Of a stretch of 64,000 nucleotides of DNA, positions 1,278 through 41,208 are shown piece after piece (within the stretch, counting starts at the first letter, position 1; each line of letters starts with the position of its first letter). This stretch comes from Tepidibacillus decaturensis. GTDB taxonomy: Bacteria > Bacillota > Bacilli > Tepidibacillales > Tepidibacillaceae. Made by a program: the position numbers and the translations under genes. The DNA is taken from the NCBI RefSeq assembly GCF_001561915.1, contig NZ_LSKU01000001.1:233065-297064 (forward strand). The letters run 5' to 3'. Below the pieces are notes generated by a model. The model was not told the DNA's origin, did not search any database, and worked only from the letters and a program-made list of their open reading frames with translations.

Positions 1278-1412
1278 AAGTATAACTTTCTTCCACTTGT
1301 CATTTAGGGGTTTGTATATTCTATAAGCTGTGACCTTCAGAAGTGCCCTTCTCTCCATAATCTTTATTTATAGAAGGGTACGGATGACGGAGCGCGATGG
1401 AATATACAAACC
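1278..1412 (+). repeat. Structured repeat family A, full copy 1
   Basis: A conserved 5' head (AGTATAACTTTCTTCCA...) is followed by a 104-bp core at 1309-1412 with an outer inverted repeat of 16 bp (GGTTTGTATATTC at the left, its complement at the right) and an inner stem GTGCCCTTCT at 1343-1352 pairing with 1372-1381. Two stem positions differ from the other copies and both still pair as G-U on this strand. A T-rich tract follows the outer stem, so the element could end transcripts. Other full copies are at 12711 and 19419. Confidence 0.8.
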
Positions 1413-1432
1413 TTTTCTTAAAAGATAAGCAA

Positions 1433-1515
1433 GTATAACTTTCTTTTTATTATTTTAATGGGGCCCCACAAAAGTAGTCGAATTACGCTTCGAAGGAAGT
1501 CTCACTTTTGTGGGC
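1433..1515 (+). repeat. Hairpin repeat family B, copy 1
   Basis: CCCACAAAAGT at 1465-1475 pairs perfectly with ACTTTTGTGGG at 1504-1514 around a 28-base loop. The preceding head (AGTATAACTTTCTT) is the same as in family A. Related copies lie at 17979 and 40091. It occupies the space upstream of rnhA; no T-run follows, so it is not an obvious terminator. Confidence 0.6.
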
Positions 1516-6012: not shown

Positions 6013-6025
6013 AGTAAAGCATAGA

Positions 6026-6070
6026 TACATGGACAACGGAGCGCGTTAGAATATACAAACTTATTCTATG
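6026..6070 (+). repeat. Short derivative of repeat family A (S1)
   Basis: Positions 6036-6060 (ACGGAGCGCGTTAGAATATA...) match the right end of the full family A elements; the left half is absent. The flanks CATAG and CTATG form a small inverted repeat. Just downstream is TATAAT, so the element could also contribute a promoter region. Confidence 0.6.
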
Positions 6071-11749: not shown

Positions 11750-11756
11750 GATCGTG

Positions 11757-12617
11757 ATGAATATCAAGATTATTACAGATAGTGCTGCAGATTTATCTAA
11801 AAATGTGATAGAGCAATATAATATTGATGTTATACCATTACAAGTATTCTTAAATGATCAACAATTTGAAGATGGGGTTACGATTCAACCAAATGAGTTA
11901 TTTCAGGGTATGAGGGAAGGAAACGTATATAAGACGTCACAGCCTTTATTAACACGTTTTAAAGATGTTTTTGAAAAATATGCAAAAGAAAAAACTAGCT
12001 GTATATATATTGCTTTTTCATCAGGTCTATCTGGTACCTATCAATCTTCTGTCATGATTAAAAATGAGGTGCTCGAAGAATACCCTGATTTTGATTGTGA
12101 GATTTTCGATACAAAATGTGCTTCAGTTGGTCTTGGCCTTGTCGTTTTAAAAGCTGCTCAACTGGCTGCTGATGGGAAAAGTAAAGCTGAAATTTTGGAA
12201 GCCATCGATTTTTATGCGAAACATATGGAACATGTATTCACGGTTGATAATTTAGAATACCTTTATCGTGGTGGAAGAGTTAGCCGAACAGCAGCGATTA
12301 TTGGAGGATTATTAAACATAAAACCAGTTCTTAATGTTGAGGATGGAAAGCTGGTACCAATTGAAAAAATACGTGGTAGGAAAAGGGTTTTTAAACGAAT
12401 GATTGAACTGATGGAAGAGAGGGGTAACAATCTTCGAGAGCAAACCATTGGGATTTGTCATGGGGATGATGAAGAGGGTGCAGAAACACTAAAAATAATG
12501 ATTAGAGAGAAGTTTGGAACAGATAAATTTTATGTAAATATCATTGGAGCTGTCATTGGAGCTCATGCGGGTCCAGGGACCCTTTCTGTTTTTTTTCTGA
12601 ATAAAGAGGCAAAATAA
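11757..12617 (+). CDS. DegV family fatty-acid-binding protein
   Basis: The 286-residue protein begins MNIKIITDSAADL, the DegV signature, and continues with the SSGLSGTYQSS block near residue 87, VDNLEYLYRGGRVSRTAA near 163 and the terminal IGAVIGAHAGPGT. DegV proteins bind a single fatty acid; many serve as FakB partners of the FakA kinase that phosphorylates exogenous fatty acids. No FakA-type kinase is nearby, so which role this copy has is open. GTG 11754 directly precedes ATG 11757; either could start behind AAAGGAGTAAG. The ribosome site lies inside a possible alternating hairpin. Confidence 0.9.
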   Translation: MNIKIITDSAADLSKNVIEQYNIDVIPLQVFLNDQQFEDGVTIQPNELFQGMREGNVYKTSQPLLTRFKDVFEKYAKEKTSCIYIAFSSGLSGTYQSSVMIKNEVLEEYPDFDCEIFDTKCASVGLGLVVLKAAQLAADGKSKAEILEAIDFYAKHMEHVFTVDNLEYLYRGGRVSRTAAIIGGLLNIKPVLNVEDGKLVPIEKIRGRKRVFKRMIELMEERGNNLREQTIGICHGDDEEGAETLKIMIREKFGTDKFYVNIIGAVIGAHAGPGTLSVFFLNKEAK

Positions 12618-12710
12618 TACTTAAACGAAATTTAGTTTTTCTTTTGATGAATATTATGACCCAGAAAATCTTAGTGAAAAAGGATATACTCTTTTTTTAA
12701 AGATTAAAAA

Positions 12711-12844
12711 AGTATAACTTTCTTCCATTTGTCATTTATGGGTTTGTATATTCCATAAGCTGCGACCTTCAGAAGTGCCCTTTTCTCCGTAATCTTTATT
12801 CATAGAAGGGCACGGATGACGGAGCGCGATGGAATATACAAACC
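12711..12844 (+). repeat. Structured repeat family A, full copy 2
   Basis: Same 5' head and 104-bp core (12741-12844) as the copy at 1278. Outer stem of 16 perfect bp: 12741-12756 with 12829-12844. The inner stem has one change relative to copy 3, a C-to-T at its ninth position, which becomes a U-G pair on this strand. The loop carries CTCCGT, complementary to ACGGAG downstream of the stem. It lies between degV and an operator-like site. Confidence 0.85.
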
Positions 12845-12853
12845 TTTCTTATT

Positions 12854-13121: not shown

Positions 13122-13619
13122 ATGATTAAATTTTTAAAGGAAAATGTGTATGCTTCTTATGTTTTAACTCTTGTTCGTCTTTATCTAGGGTATGAATGGA
13201 TTCAAGCAGGGTGGCATAAGCTTACAAGTGCAGAACCATTCAATGCACAAGGATTTTTAATGGGAGCTGTAAAAAAGGCAACAGGTGATCATCCAGTAGT
13301 TCAAAGTTGGTGGGCAAATTTCTTAGACGCATTTGCTATTCCAAACGTAGGATTATTCAACTTCTTAGTCCCTTACGGTGAATTTTTAGTAGGTTTAGGA
13401 CTTATCCTTGGAGCATTAACGACAGCGGCAGCATTCTTTGGTATCTTAATGAATTATGCATTTATGTTTAGTGGTTCTACAAGCACAAACGTACAAATGT
13501 CTTTACTCACTATTTTCATTTTGGTTGCAGGATTTAACGCAGGTAAAATTGGCTTAGATCGTTGGATTATTCCTTACATTAAAAAAGCAGTTAAAAAAGA
13601 TGCAACATTAGAAGCGTAA
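13122..13619 (+). CDS. DoxX family membrane protein
   Basis: A 165-residue integral membrane protein with about four hydrophobic helices. The opening block VLTLVRLYLGYEWIQAGWHKL and the later VPYGEFLVGLGLILGALT are typical of the DoxX/TQO small-subunit family. Relatives include quinone-linked thiosulfate oxidoreductase subunits and uncharacterised redox-stress proteins; the exact role is not deducible. AGGAGGGG precedes the ATG. The upstream region has redox-type operator palindromes, consistent with oxygen- or NADH-responsive control, though that link is inference. A strong terminator follows at once, so the gene stands alone. Confidence 0.82.
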   Translation: MIKFLKENVYASYVLTLVRLYLGYEWIQAGWHKLTSAEPFNAQGFLMGAVKKATGDHPVVQSWWANFLDAFAIPNVGLFNFLVPYGEFLVGLGLILGALTTAAAFFGILMNYAFMFSGSTSTNVQMSLLTIFILVAGFNAGKIGLDRWIIPYIKKAVKKDATLEA

Positions 13620-18100: not shown

Positions 18101-19384
18101 TTGCAGATCCATGTTGTTCGTAGAGGTCAAACATTATTTGGAATTGCTCAAGCATTTAATACGACTGCTCAAGCGATTACTGTGGCCAATGAAATACCCG
18201 ATCCTAACCGATTAGTCGTAGGGCAAGCATTGGTTATTCCAATTGTTGGAAGATACCATTGGGTTCAACCTGGCGAATCTTTGTATAGTATTGGACGACG
18301 TTATAATATTAGTCCTAGTGAGCTGGCAAGAGTTAATCGGATATCACTAACAACAATACTTCCTATTGGTTTTAGGTTATATATTCCCCCAAGACCAAAA
18401 CCTACGATTGAAGTCAATGCTTACCTTGAACCAAGGGAACGAATTACACCTGCCCAAAGACAAGAAGTAAGAAGGGTAGGGAGGTACTTAACTTATTTAG
18501 CACCATTTAGTTTTAGGGCAAATCGAGACGGTTCATTGACTCCGCCTCCACTCGATGATATTCCTAACATTGCCCGCTCTTTAGGGATTACGAATATGTT
18601 AGTTGTTACAAATCAAGAAGCAGGACAATTTAGCAAGGAGCTAGCACATATTTTATTTACGAATGAGAGCATATCTAATCGTTTCCTTAGTAATATTATC
18701 AATACTGCTAATCGTTTAGGTTTCAGGGATATCCATTTCGATTTTGAATTTATTGATCCGAACGATCGAGAGGCATACAACCAGTTTTTAAGAAGAGCTC
18801 AAAGCAGACTAAAACCAGCTGGCTTTTTATTATCTACGGCGTTAGCCCCAAAAACAAGTGCGGCACAAATAGGTGCTTGGTATACTGCACACGATTATAG
18901 AGCTCATGGTCAAATCGTTGATTTTTCCGTTCCCATGACGTATGAATGGGGATATACTTATAGTACACCACAGGCAGTTAGCCCTATTGGACCAGTTCGT
19001 CAAGTGATCCAATATGCTTTAACAGAAATGCCTGCCAAAAAGATTATGTTAGGGCAGAACTTATATGGTTATGATTGGCGAGCCCCCTTTAGGTATGGTG
19101 GAGAAGCAGCAAGAGCATTAAGCCCTCAGCAAGCGATTGAATTGGCTAAGAGGGAAAATGTAGCGATACAATATGATACCCGTGCCCAAGCCCCATTTTT
19201 TAAATATGTTGATGATCAAGGACGAGAACATGAAGTATGGTTTGAGGATGCAAGGAGTATTCAAGCTAAATTTGACTTAATCAAACAATTAGGGCTAAGA
19301 GGAATTAGTTATTGGAAATTGGGACTTTCCTTCCCGCAAAATTGGCTGCTTCTAGAGGATAATTTCAATATCACCAAAAGATAA
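18101..19384 (+). CDS. sleL: Spore cortex-lytic N-acetylglucosaminidase SleL/YaaH type
   Basis: The 427-residue protein has two N-terminal LysM peptidoglycan-binding repeats (residues 2-46, HVVRRGQTLFGIAQAF; residues 50-95, HWVQPGESLYSIGRRY) and a C-terminal glycoside hydrolase 18 domain from about residue 105. The catalytic segment DIHFDFEFIDPNDREAYNQF near residue 212 keeps the Asp-x-Glu pair with Glu as acid/base. There is no signal peptide, as usual for SleL, which is delivered to the spore surface. It cleaves cortex fragments during germination. Translation starts at TTG after GAAGGAGGG. The family A repeat downstream may terminate the transcript. Confidence 0.9.
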   Translation: MQIHVVRRGQTLFGIAQAFNTTAQAITVANEIPDPNRLVVGQALVIPIVGRYHWVQPGESLYSIGRRYNISPSELARVNRISLTTILPIGFRLYIPPRPKPTIEVNAYLEPRERITPAQRQEVRRVGRYLTYLAPFSFRANRDGSLTPPPLDDIPNIARSLGITNMLVVTNQEAGQFSKELAHILFTNESISNRFLSNIINTANRLGFRDIHFDFEFIDPNDREAYNQFLRRAQSRLKPAGFLLSTALAPKTSAAQIGAWYTAHDYRAHGQIVDFSVPMTYEWGYTYSTPQAVSPIGPVRQVIQYALTEMPAKKIMLGQNLYGYDWRAPFRYGGEAARALSPQQAIELAKRENVAIQYDTRAQAPFFKYVDDQGREHEVWFEDARSIQAKFDLIKQLGLRGISYWKLGLSFPQNWLLLEDNFNITKR

Positions 19385-19418: not shown

Positions 19419-19605
19419 ATAAAAACTTTCTTCCATTTGTCATTTAAGGGTTTGTATATTCCATAAGCTGCGACATAGCGTGACTAGCAGCTTTAGCTGT
19501 GTAGCACGACTTGTACACTTTGTGTGCCTTCAGAAGTGCCCTTCTCTCCGTAATCTTTATTCATAGAAGGGCACGGATGACGGAGCGCGATGGAATATAC
19601 AAACC
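19419..19605 (+). repeat. Structured repeat family A, full copy 3 with extra arm
   Basis: The core at 19449-19605 is identical in plan to the other two copies, with perfect 16-bp outer and 10-bp inner stems, but carries an additional 53 bases at 19475-19527. The insert itself folds: CAGCT/AGCTG within CGTG...CACG, then ACAC/GTGT. It looks like a variable helical arm added at one fixed position. The element starts 35 bp after sleL. Confidence 0.85.
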
Positions 19606-19683
19606 TTTTCTTATACTATTATGGGCTATATATTGAACAAATGGTGAACAAACATGATCCATCAAAAATAAAAAGAAAACGAG

Positions 19684-19795: not shown

Positions 19796-19928
19796 ATAAA
19801 ACAGAATAATTAAACCTATATAAATTTGAAGGCGCCATTTATAGTTGATAAGTTGTTGTTATAAGTAGGTTTATTTAATATTTTAGAAACAAATGAACAT
19901 TTTAATTCTTTTGCTTGTTACAATTTAT

Positions 19929-19944
19929 TGTGTATTTATTCACA
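19929..19944. promoter_or_regulatory. Second Rex-like operator next to the adhE ribosome site
   Basis: TGTGTATTTATTCACA has the same spacing as the site at 19780 with one half-site change. It lies 22 bases before the adhE ATG, where bound repressor would block early transcription. Confidence 0.5.
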
Positions 19945-19965
19945 TTAAAAATGGAGGAGAGCATA

Positions 19966-22605
19966 ATGGAAAAAGTGCTTGAGAAAGCAAATCATCAAAA
20001 TGAAAAGATGCAAGATGAAGGGAAAGAGATGGTTCAGACTACAATTGATGAATTAGTAAAAAACGCTAAAATTGCTTTACAAGAAATGATGAAATTGAAT
20101 CAAGAACAAATTGATGAGATTGTAAAGCAAATGGCTTTAGCTGGATTAGATCAACATATGCCACTTGCTAAAATGGCAGTTGAGGAAACTAGAAGAGGAA
20201 TTTATGAAGATAAGATCATTAAAAATCTGTTCGCTACAGAATACATCTACCACAGTATCAAGTATGACAAGACGGTAGGGATCATCGAAGAAAATGAACT
20301 AGAAGGCTACTTTAAAGTAGCAGAACCAGTGGGTGTTATCGCAGGGGTTACACCGGTAACCAATCCAACATCTACAACGATGTTTAAAGCAATTATCTCT
20401 TTGAAAACAAGAAATCCAATTATCTTTGCTTTTCATCCCTCTGCACAGAAATGTAGCGTAGCAGCTGCAACAGTTGTTCGGGATGCAGCAGTAAAAGCTG
20501 GTGCTCCAAAAGATTGTATTCAATGGATCGAAACGCCTTCGATTGAAGCAACACAATTATTAATGAATCATCCAGGCGTTGCGCTTGTATTAGCAACAGG
20601 TGGTTCAGGGATGGTCAAATCTGCTTATAGTACAGGAAAACCTGCATTAGGTGTGGGACCAGGTAATGTACCCTGTTATATAGAAAAAACAGCCAATATT
20701 AAACAAGCGGTAACCGATTTAATTCTTTCCAAGACCTTTGATAATGGAATGATTTGTGCTTCTGAACAAGCAGTTATTGTAGATCAGGAAATAGCAAAAA
20801 CGGTTAAACAATATATGATGGAAAATCATTGCTACTTCTTAAACAAAGAAGAAATAAAAAAACTTGAGAAACTTGTAATCAATCCAACCACTTGTGCAGT
20901 AAATGCATCGATTGTTGGTCAATCACCTATAAACATTGCAGAGCAAGCAGGCATTCAAGTACCAAAAGAAACTAAGATGTTAGTTGTTCCGCTAGAGGGA
21001 GTAGGAGAAGAATACCCCCTTTCTCGAGAAAAGCTTAGCCCAATTCTTGCTTACTATGAAGTAAAAAATGTGGATGAAGGAATTAAGCGAGCTGAAGAAA
21101 TGGTCTTGTTTGGCGGGATGGGTCACTCTGCTGTGATTCATAGTCAAAATGATGAAGTGATTCAAGCATTTGCTAGTCGAATTAAAACAGGCCGACTCAT
21201 TGTTAACGCACCATCAACTCATGGAGCGATTGGGGATATCTATAATGCCAATATTCCATCCTTAACCTTAGGGTGTGGCACTTATGGATCGAATTCAACA
21301 ACAGATAATGTATCCTCTGTCAATTTGATTAATGTTAAAAAGGTAGCTAGGAGAAAAGTAAATATGCAATGGTTCAAAATTCCATCCAAAATCTACTTTG
21401 AAAGTGGTTCTGTTCAATATTTAGAAAAAATGCCTGAGATTTCTCGAGCATTAATCGTAACTGACCCCATGATGGTGAAATTAGGTTATGTGGATCGGGT
21501 CTTATATTATCTAAGAAAACGACAAAATTACGTGCATAGCGAAATCTTCTCTGAAGTAGAGCCAGATCCATCTGTAGAAACCGTCTTAAAAGGAGCCGAA
21601 TTGATGCGTCAATTCCAACCAGACGTGATTATTGCTCTAGGTGGTGGCTCAGCAATGGACGCAGCAAAAGGCATGTGGCTATTCTATGAATATCCTGGAG
21701 AAAAATTCGAGCATATGAAACAAAAGTTTATGGATATTCGAAAAAGAGTCTATAAGTTCCCTAAACTTGGTGAAAAAGCAAAATTGGTTGCTATTCCAAC
21801 AACATCAGGTACAGGTTCAGAAGTAACTAGTTTTGCGGTGATATCAGATAAGAAAAATAATATTAAATACCCACTTGCAGATTATGAATTAACACCAGAT
21901 GTTGCGATTATTGATCCTGATTTTGTGATGACAGTACCAAAGAGTGTAACAGCCGATACTGGTATGGACGTACTCACTCATGCGATTGAAGCATATGTCT
22001 CGGTGATGGCGAATGATTATACGGATGCACTTGCAATGAAAGCAATCCAATTAGTCTTTGAATATTTACCAAAAGCCTACCACAATCCCAATGATAAAGT
22101 GGCCAGAGAAAAAATGCATAATGCTTCTTGTATCGCGGGTATGGCGTTTGCTAACGCATTCCTTGGTATCAATCATAGCTTAGCTCACAAATTAGGTGGA
22201 GAATTCCATATTGCGCATGGTAAGGCAAATTCAATTCTTCTTCCTTATGTGATTCGCTATAACGCAACGAAGCCAACAAAATTTGTCTCATTTCCTAAAT
22301 ATGATCACTTTATTGCCAATGAAAGATATGCTAAAATTGCTAGAATGCTAGGATTAAAAGCGAGAACAACAGAAGAAGGAGTGCAAAGTTTAATTGAAGC
22401 CATTATTCAGTTAGCAAAAGAATTAAATATGCCACTCACCATTAAAGAAGCAGGAATCGATGAGAAAACATTCGAAGCGAAAGTGGAAGAGTTAGCAGAA
22501 AAAGCGTTTGAAGATCAATGTACAACAGCAAATCCAAGATATCCACTTGTAAGTGAACTAGCAACGATTTACCGAGAGGCTTTTCAAGGAAAAGGAATTG
22601 TATAA
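19966..22605 (+). CDS. adhE: Bifunctional acetaldehyde-CoA/alcohol dehydrogenase
   Basis: AdhE converts acetyl-CoA to acetaldehyde and then ethanol, oxidising two NADH, and forms spirosomes in the cytoplasm. The 879 residues contain an N-terminal CoA-acylating aldehyde dehydrogenase (catalytic Cys in DNGMICASEQAVIV near residue 255) and a C-terminal iron-dependent alcohol dehydrogenase (GGGSAMDAAKGMW near 560; iron-ligand His residues in NHSLAHKLGGEFHIAHGKANS near 740). ATG at 19966 follows GGAGGAG; the frame is open 17 codons further up without a ribosome site. pflB and pflA follow closely, making a fermentation operon behind two redox-type operators. Confidence 0.95.
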   Translation: MEKVLEKANHQNEKMQDEGKEMVQTTIDELVKNAKIALQEMMKLNQEQIDEIVKQMALAGLDQHMPLAKMAVEETRRGIYEDKIIKNLFATEYIYHSIKYDKTVGIIEENELEGYFKVAEPVGVIAGVTPVTNPTSTTMFKAIISLKTRNPIIFAFHPSAQKCSVAAATVVRDAAVKAGAPKDCIQWIETPSIEATQLLMNHPGVALVLATGGSGMVKSAYSTGKPALGVGPGNVPCYIEKTANIKQAVTDLILSKTFDNGMICASEQAVIVDQEIAKTVKQYMMENHCYFLNKEEIKKLEKLVINPTTCAVNASIVGQSPINIAEQAGIQVPKETKMLVVPLEGVGEEYPLSREKLSPILAYYEVKNVDEGIKRAEEMVLFGGMGHSAVIHSQNDEVIQAFASRIKTGRLIVNAPSTHGAIGDIYNANIPSLTLGCGTYGSNSTTDNVSSVNLINVKKVARRKVNMQWFKIPSKIYFESGSVQYLEKMPEISRALIVTDPMMVKLGYVDRVLYYLRKRQNYVHSEIFSEVEPDPSVETVLKGAELMRQFQPDVIIALGGGSAMDAAKGMWLFYEYPGEKFEHMKQKFMDIRKRVYKFPKLGEKAKLVAIPTTSGTGSEVTSFAVISDKKNNIKYPLADYELTPDVAIIDPDFVMTVPKSVTADTGMDVLTHAIEAYVSVMANDYTDALAMKAIQLVFEYLPKAYHNPNDKVAREKMHNASCIAGMAFANAFLGINHSLAHKLGGEFHIAHGKANSILLPYVIRYNATKPTKFVSFPKYDHFIANERYAKIARMLGLKARTTEEGVQSLIEAIIQLAKELNMPLTIKEAGIDEKTFEAKVEELAEKAFEDQCTTANPRYPLVSELATIYREAFQGKGIV

Positions 22606-31796: not shown

Positions 31797-31843
31797 AAAT
31801 TTATACCCCTCCCTGCTACTTTATTTTTTCATTCAAAAGAAAT

Positions 31844-31884
31844 ACATAGATAACGGAGCGCGTTGGAATATACAAACTTATCTA
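31844..31884 (+). repeat. Short derivative of repeat family A (S2)
   Basis: 31853-31877 matches the right end of family A (ACGGAGCGCGTTGGAATATA...), preceded by ACATAGATA as in S1. AGATAA and TTATCT flank it as an inverted repeat. It is in the same plus orientation although the surrounding genes run leftward. Confidence 0.6.
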
Positions 31885-40060: not shown

Positions 40061-40090
40061 TTCTTTTCCCTCCTTTTTAATCATTAAAGA

Positions 40091-40170
40091 AAGTACTACT
40101 TTCTTTTCATTATCATAATGGGACCCCACAAAAGAAATCAGAATAACACTTATACCTATTTTACACAAGG
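40091..40170 (+). repeat. Hairpin repeat family B, copy 2 (degenerate)
   Basis: The head and left arm (AAGTACTACTTTCTTTTCAT..., then GGGACCCCACAAAAG) align with the copy at 1433 with few differences, but the right arm of the hairpin is lost. A following TTTTACACA segment also matches the sequence after copy 1. Confidence 0.5.
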
Positions 40171-41056: not shown

Positions 41057-41077
41057 CCGCGTTAGAATATACAAACC
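41057..41077 (+). repeat. Short derivative of repeat family A (S3)
   Basis: CCGCGTTAGAATATACAAACC matches the terminal 20 or so bases of the family A right end. It lies between divergent ytrH and dnaE, again in plus orientation. Confidence 0.5.
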
Positions 41078-41208
41078 TTTTTATACTTAAACTTATGGAA
41101 AAAACCTTAAGAACATGAATGAAAAACGTAGTGTATAAAACATAGGCTACCTTGACGAAAAAGGTATAATAGGAATGATTAGAAGTTTTTTATGAAGGAG
41201 AAATTACG

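Follow-up and report, generated by a model that had tools for sequence, protein, structure and literature searches.

Copies of the repeat in the window

The window, by which we mean the whole 64,000-nucleotide stretch of Tepidibacillus decaturensis DNA that was analysed, contains three full plus-strand copies of a repeat picked out by a first-pass annotation, all of which are covariance-model matches. Copy 1 is preceded directly on its 5′ side by a plus-strand terminator-like hairpin with a T-run (1222-1266; 17 pairs, tail TTTTTAAAAA; shuffle mean 0.1). Its head hairpin, AAAAAAGTATAACTTTCTT, lies at 1274-1292 (+; G000:C1:234338-234356 in genome coordinates), and its core at 1306-1419 (+; 124.8 bits with model R1), where the model match of about 1306-1415 is close to the span of 1278-1412 first proposed. 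Within this core, the 5′ arm of the outer stem P1 (1308-1323) pairs with 1398-1413, and this 3′ arm is followed by a T-rich tail, TTTCTT. Inside P1, the P1a arm GCTGT (1327-1331) pairs with GCGC (1392-1395), leaving its third base in a bulge; the P1b arm CCTTCA (1334-1339) pairs, apart from a U.C mismatch, with TGACGG (1385-1390); and the inner-stem P2 arm GTGCCCTTC (1343-1351) pairs with GAAGGGTAC (1373-1381), all on the plus strand. The predicted fold of this core has an energy of -48.1 kcal/mol and a z of -7.6.

Copy 2 has the same head hairpin, AAAAAAGTATAACTTTCTT, at 12706-12724 (+) and a core at 12738-12850 (+; model match about 12738-12847, 130.2 bits with R1), with a DegV-family gene (11754-12617) before it and a DoxX-like gene (13122-13619) after it. 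Copy 3 has a LysM/GH18 gene (18101-19384) on one side and an AdhE-like gene (19915-22605) on the other, with a core and insert at 19446-19612 (+; model match about 19446-19608, 122.3 bits with R1). The head had been described as common to all three copies; the full hairpin, AAGAAAGT-ATA-ACTTTCTT or a near variant located 13 nt 5′ of the core, is present in copies 1 and 2, and copy 3 retains half of it (AACTTTCTTCC..., 19420-19435, +). Copy 3 also carries an optional 53-nt module (19474-19526, +), absent from the earlier description, with two arms: CGTG..CACG with GCAGC-UUUA-GCTGT, and GTACAC-TTT-GTGTGC. Plus-strand 3′ fragments of another subfamily occur at 6021-6067 and 31838-31883, and a plus-strand 3′ outer-stem fragment at 41058-41087. 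Close to copy 1 is a minus-strand gene for an IS30-type transposase (HTH_38, rve; 34-987), whose end repeats lie near 38-65 and 1059-1086. We rejected it as a partner of the repeat, as these end repeats are unlike the element and the gene does not recur at other copies.

Distribution of the repeat family

The genome-wide covariance-model search that the first-pass annotation had proposed recovered approximately 57 confident loci in the host genome (model R1; 2.96 Mb, three contigs), together with some twenty weaker matches or fragments; a repeat this frequent, with folds as stable as those given below, is well outside chance expectation. Because the copies are near-palindromic, most score weakly on both strands, and raw match counts are inflated by opposite-strand shadows. 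Each of the five genomes examined from the window's bacterial family carried copies, with about 83, 84, 33, 15, and 3 matches per genome, shadows included; an exact-pattern search of named genomes gave a single matching record, a T. decaturensis MAG. Among 400 Bacilli genomes, the matches beyond the window's family fell in three genomes of one genus of a second family (f4), and within that genus the repeat was found in 24 of 40 genomes, two of them with nearly 50 matches. BLAST of an f4-type copy led to replicons of Paenibacillus cellulosilyticus, and f4 is therefore most likely Paenibacillaceae. A second model, R2, was built solely from these Paenibacillus-like sequences, and it retrieved copies from the window's family with E-values down to 6.5e-13, so that R1 and R2 find each other's sequences. 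Searching 399 Bacillota genomes with R2 matched two further f4 genera, and the remaining genomes outside f4 and the window's family gave no matches.

The repeat had no match among Rfam covariance models or in searches of phages and viral contigs, and a literature search drawn mostly from papers outside subscription journals returned no description of it in Paenibacillus. Together with the deep covariation described below, the lack of an Rfam match bears out the proposal of an undescribed structured repeat family. Its members are short, non-coding, and present in many copies, and carry no transposase, which are the features of a MITE. Many copies are truncated, have lost the core, or are reduced to P1 arms with unique internal deletions; such deletions and truncations are as expected for palindromes without site-by-site maintenance. 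We found no constant target duplication by eye in the flanks, and none at a cross-species empty site. Solitary outer-stem arms were considered as insertion-sequence ends and rejected in favour of decayed copies or chance. Overall, the repeat looks like an undescribed family of parasitic, structure-recognised mobile repeats.

Several local arrangements were also evident. Within 53 kb (G000:C1:2208270-2261615), the TTGTGTTTTGCA-like subfamily has five copies, all in lagging orientation, a case of local spread. Tandem arrays occur at L136 (G004), L179 (G002), and L184 (G003), their repeat periods being 90-113 bp or roughly 300 bp. In the Paenibacillus-like genomes G434 and G432, inverted pairs of copies approximately 400-1300 bp apart (L213, L214, L215, L216, L222, and L195) enclose related non-coding sequence and possibly form a larger compound element. 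Two copies lie in rRNA operons (L193 in G395 and L131 in G001), one in a 16S-23S spacer identified by Rfam and one beside a 5S-like rRNA.

A conserved fold with internal loops

The predicted fold is a single long imperfect hairpin, P1-P1a-P1b-P2, with conserved internal loops, following the plan P1 - UAA/GU - P1a - GA/A - P1b - GRA/GGA - P2 - loop. P1 is 16 bp long and variable in sequence (GTTTGTATATTCC, TTGTGTTTTGCA, GCTTGTATGTTCT, and others), as is P2 (9-10 bp); P1a consists of GCNGC with GC(N)GC, and P1b of CYUUYR with YRACGG. The P1a helix, overlooked in the first-pass annotation, shows double changes in four of four pairs and is 89% paired. The third base of P1a bulges out in most copies and pairs where the opposite arm has an extra base (GCAGC/GCTGC in L141, GCTAC/GTAGC in L179). 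Between P1a and P1b, 13 of the 33 copies in the A1 alignment hold the optional module, whose own stems are compensated (CGTG/CACG, CACG/TGTG, GACG/CGTC), with helices 2 and 3 paired at 95.5% and 98.4%.

Covariation was evaluated in several alignments. First, in A1 (33 diverse copies aligned with MAFFT, with no structure fitting), 96% of cells in the 47 pairs were paired and 23 pairs had changes on both sides, versus 9.6 in shuffles (0 of 500 reached the observed value) and 4-8 when partners were slid. Second, A5 (103 copies, 99 distinct) showed double changes in 31 of 34 pairs and 95% of cells paired, although this alignment leans toward the structure because it was fitted to R1. Lastly, Paenibacillus copies aligned separately had double changes in 20 of 27 pairs and an identical fold plan, and single-copy minimum-energy folds matched the plan with z values of -7.2 to -10.5 against shuffles. 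Aligning the copies and examining covariation, as suggested at the outset, revealed very strong covariation. Since the fold persists in both bacterial families even as the stems change, structure rather than sequence is likely the unit of recognition. It is the interior core that is conserved rather than the ends. Such a pattern is uncommon among transposase substrates and counts against a mobile-repeat reading.

Strand-specific changes and the loop pseudoknot

The three stem differences that the first-pass annotation cited as strand-specific do exist. Each is a C>T change that leaves the plus strand with a G-U pair; a fourth difference in copy 1, GCTGC>GCTGT, lies in P1a. The first three had been taken to favour an RNA over a DNA-only element, an argument that fails, given a similar C>T skew in unpaired columns. 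In the main subfamily (27 copies) we counted 25 G-U cells versus 5 A-C cells (12 versus 4 distinct kinds), and every G-U change is C>T on the plus strand. The ratio of C>T to G>A is 26:7 in paired columns and 10:2 in unpaired columns, where the numbers are small. Since the unpaired columns are similarly skewed, the G-U excess looks like a mutational strand asymmetry. In the deep set, with the two outermost pairs left out, there were 177 G-U versus 45 A-C cells; the 177 include a U.G pair in P1b that is retained in 61 of 99 sequences. This kept pair favours folding of the plus strand, as RNA and as single-stranded DNA alike.

Such conservation, and that of the internal loops and covarying stems from Tepidibacillus to Paenibacillus, would also suit a functional RNA module, transcribed within the 3′ UTR of the gene upstream or of read-through transcripts, in which the core would be bound by a cellular protein or cleave the RNA and mobility would be secondary. 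The T-rich tail that follows P1 in many copies adds to this alternative, but it is not retained in Paenibacillus or several subfamilies, for which reason we also rejected the element as a terminator in itself. Moreover, the stems of recent copies gather changes much as unpaired sequence does, and many copies are truncated or without the entire core. A functional RNA on these grounds seems doubtful, a judgement to which the placement of the copies contributes on both sides (see below).

The further proposal that the loop CTCCGT pairs with ACGGAG in a pseudoknot did not extend to the family. With at least five complementary bases required between the loop and the right core, 19 of 91 copies could form it, almost all of them from one subfamily (loop TCTCCGTA). 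The loops of other subfamilies (TTACCTTA, TCTCCTTA, and so on) have lost complementarity while ACGGAG in the right core is mostly unchanged, and we therefore rejected the pseudoknot as a family feature.

Position relative to terminators, genes, and replication

Head-bearing copies start 2-20 nt 3′ of a terminator-like hairpin and T-run in 15 of 25 cases; random anchors in the same loci fell within that distance of a terminator in 26 of 959 cases (2.7%), and such a hairpin was present at the 3′ flank in 2 of 54 copies. Three headless copies (L022, L029, and L044) also lie directly 3′ of a terminator-like hairpin. The head itself is also found behind terminators where the core is missing or where a different repeat, family B, accompanies it: the dnaJ-prmA gap holds terminator, head, and core in G003 versus terminator, head, and family B in the host, which belongs to a different genus. 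Family B (GGGACCCCACAAAAGTAATCGGAATACGCTTCGAAGGAGGTCGTCACTTTTGTGGG; window 1421-1513 and 40087-40139, and also L072, L076, L093, and L097) has the same head hairpin and terminator position, and its ends resemble IS1182-type TIRs (CAAAAGTA...ACTTTTG).

Group IIC introns target a terminator hairpin followed by a T-run, and the resemblance of the target raises the idea of a retro-element whose RNA would be copied back 3′ of terminator hairpins. No reverse transcriptase was found in the host genome, which largely refutes a resident enzyme, and the copies show neither a poly(A) tail nor a series of 5′ truncations, their deletions being mostly internal; we regard this origin as highly improbable.

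Relative to the element, the genes flanking 54 copies were oriented (+,+) in 22 cases, (+,-) in 11, (-,-) in 12, and (-,+) in one, with eight incomplete, as judged by simple ORF calls. Divergent promoter gaps are thus nearly empty of copies (1 of 54). Antisense genes downstream mostly have their stop codon 0-44 nt from the 3′ end of the element. Many copies of older subfamilies abut such a stop codon and not a terminator, which counts against the terminator model, and adjacency to terminators could in part reflect selection against other sites. For the RNA module, the sense orientation behind genes is favourable, but the copies often sit behind a terminator that would be expected to halt transcription. 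In the flgL-fliW flagellar region, copies in three genera (L137 in G002, L139 in G001, and L149 in G004) are apparently independent insertions. This region and alaS-ireB-ruvX were examined as orthologous ancient sites and rejected, since positions and orientations differ between genomes, which points to independent insertion at both.

The position of dnaA puts the replication origin near 2.70 Mb, and GC skew puts the terminus near 1.2 Mb. On this map, 24 copies of the main subfamily are leading and 1 is lagging, compared with 19 and 11 in the other, older subfamilies, a weaker bias that counts against the mobile-repeat reading. The main-subfamily skew, which L001 and L009 hold even though their upstream genes point the opposite way, and the conserved fold with internal loops are what one might expect of a single-stranded-DNA hairpin that is a recombination substrate (as in REP/RAYT systems, IS200/IS605 ends, or integron attC sites) and is inserted at the replication fork. 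Part of the skew arises because genes themselves are leading-biased, however, and the host genome yielded no Y1 (TnpA/RAYT) transposase, nor did we see by eye a conserved end tetranucleotide or the attC layout RYYYAAC/GTTRRRY. We consider such a substrate unlikely.

A candidate mobilising enzyme

No transposase or partner gene recurs beside the copies, so that a neighbouring gene as autonomous partner was rejected, and we found no insertion sequence with the element's ends, though the P1 arms form an inverted repeat. A different association came from P. cellulosilyticus, where one copy (NZ_CP054609.1; R2 E-value 7.6e-23) lies inside an IS1182-family element, between the transposase (PF05598, PF13751) and the right TIR (GGGGCTGTCCCAAAAGT...ACTTTTGGGACAGCCCC). 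The element including the copy recurs elsewhere at 97% identity over the full 1945 bp. The copy is cleanly missing from the P. lautus homologue of this IS, which is about 70% identical; we therefore rejected the repeat as a standard part of the IS1182 family and conclude that it inserted into the IS and is carried as a passenger. Its insertion point is approximately 20-25 nt after a hairpin and TTTTT.

IS1272, a member of the IS1182 family, targets terminator hairpins and leaves no target duplication (PMC4923244), and the repeat likewise is found inserted at hairpins or terminators. The carriage within an IS and the hairpin targeting of IS1272 therefore point to an IS1182-type enzyme as a good candidate, though not as a demonstrated cause. 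In the host, fragments were the only IS1182-type transposases found within the 1.3 of 2.96 Mb searched. We hold the identification of the mobilising enzyme as IS1182-type to be tentative.

Discussion

Taking together the family and its fold, its placement behind terminators, its avoidance of promoter gaps, and the carriage of one copy in an IS1182-family element, we think it probable that these are small non-autonomous mobile repeats of a MITE- or BOX-like kind, mobilised in trans and recognised as a folded plus strand. The P1-P1a-P1b-P2 hairpin with its internal loops would be the form recognised, perhaps by an IS1182-type DDE transposase that targets hairpins. Head-bearing full copies would insert immediately 3′ of an intrinsic-terminator hairpin and T-run in a fixed orientation, and through insertion at such sites copies would collect behind genes and cause little harm. 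A stronger proposal is that Tepidibacillus relatives and Paenibacillaceae may share an undescribed system of structure-guided mobility in which the core does the work: the folded plus strand, as a catalytic RNA or a single-stranded-DNA hairpin, would direct its own insertion behind hairpins, with the interior loops rather than the ends being recognised; we give this little credence.

The nearest known kind, likened by description, appears to be the small structured interspersed repeats such as BOX and bcr. BOX elements of Streptococcus pneumoniae, described together with RUP and SPRITE, are small repeats with a predicted RNA fold that are enriched behind genes, and they may include a separately folding boxB within a boxA/boxC frame (PMC3049150). 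The repeat described here is similarly modular, with a conserved fold and an optional internal module, but it forms one long hairpin with conserved internal loops, occurs in two bacterial families of other hosts, and has head-bearing copies directly 3′ of terminators. The bcr repeats of the Bacillus cereus group are, by description, also short, interspersed, structured, and mobile-looking elements of Bacilli; compared to both BOX and bcr, the present family has deeper fold conservation, a conserved interior rather than conserved ends, and a terminator-linked site. It resembles IS1182-family elements such as IS1272 in its terminator-hairpin target, and one Paenibacillus element carries a copy, yet it lacks a transposase, and its ends differ from the IS TIRs. 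REP/REPIN-RAYT systems likewise comprise small palindromic extragenic repeats that are mobilised in trans and kept behind genes, but the host here lacks their Y1/RAYT transposase.

Most bacterial interspersed repeats are bound to one lineage and their fold is merely predicted, whereas here dozens of compensated pairs and conserved internal loops mark a fold that spans two bacterial families while the stem sequences drift. The IS1182 link offers a concrete candidate enzyme, and the terminator-linked target suggests how such repeats may spread without damaging genes.
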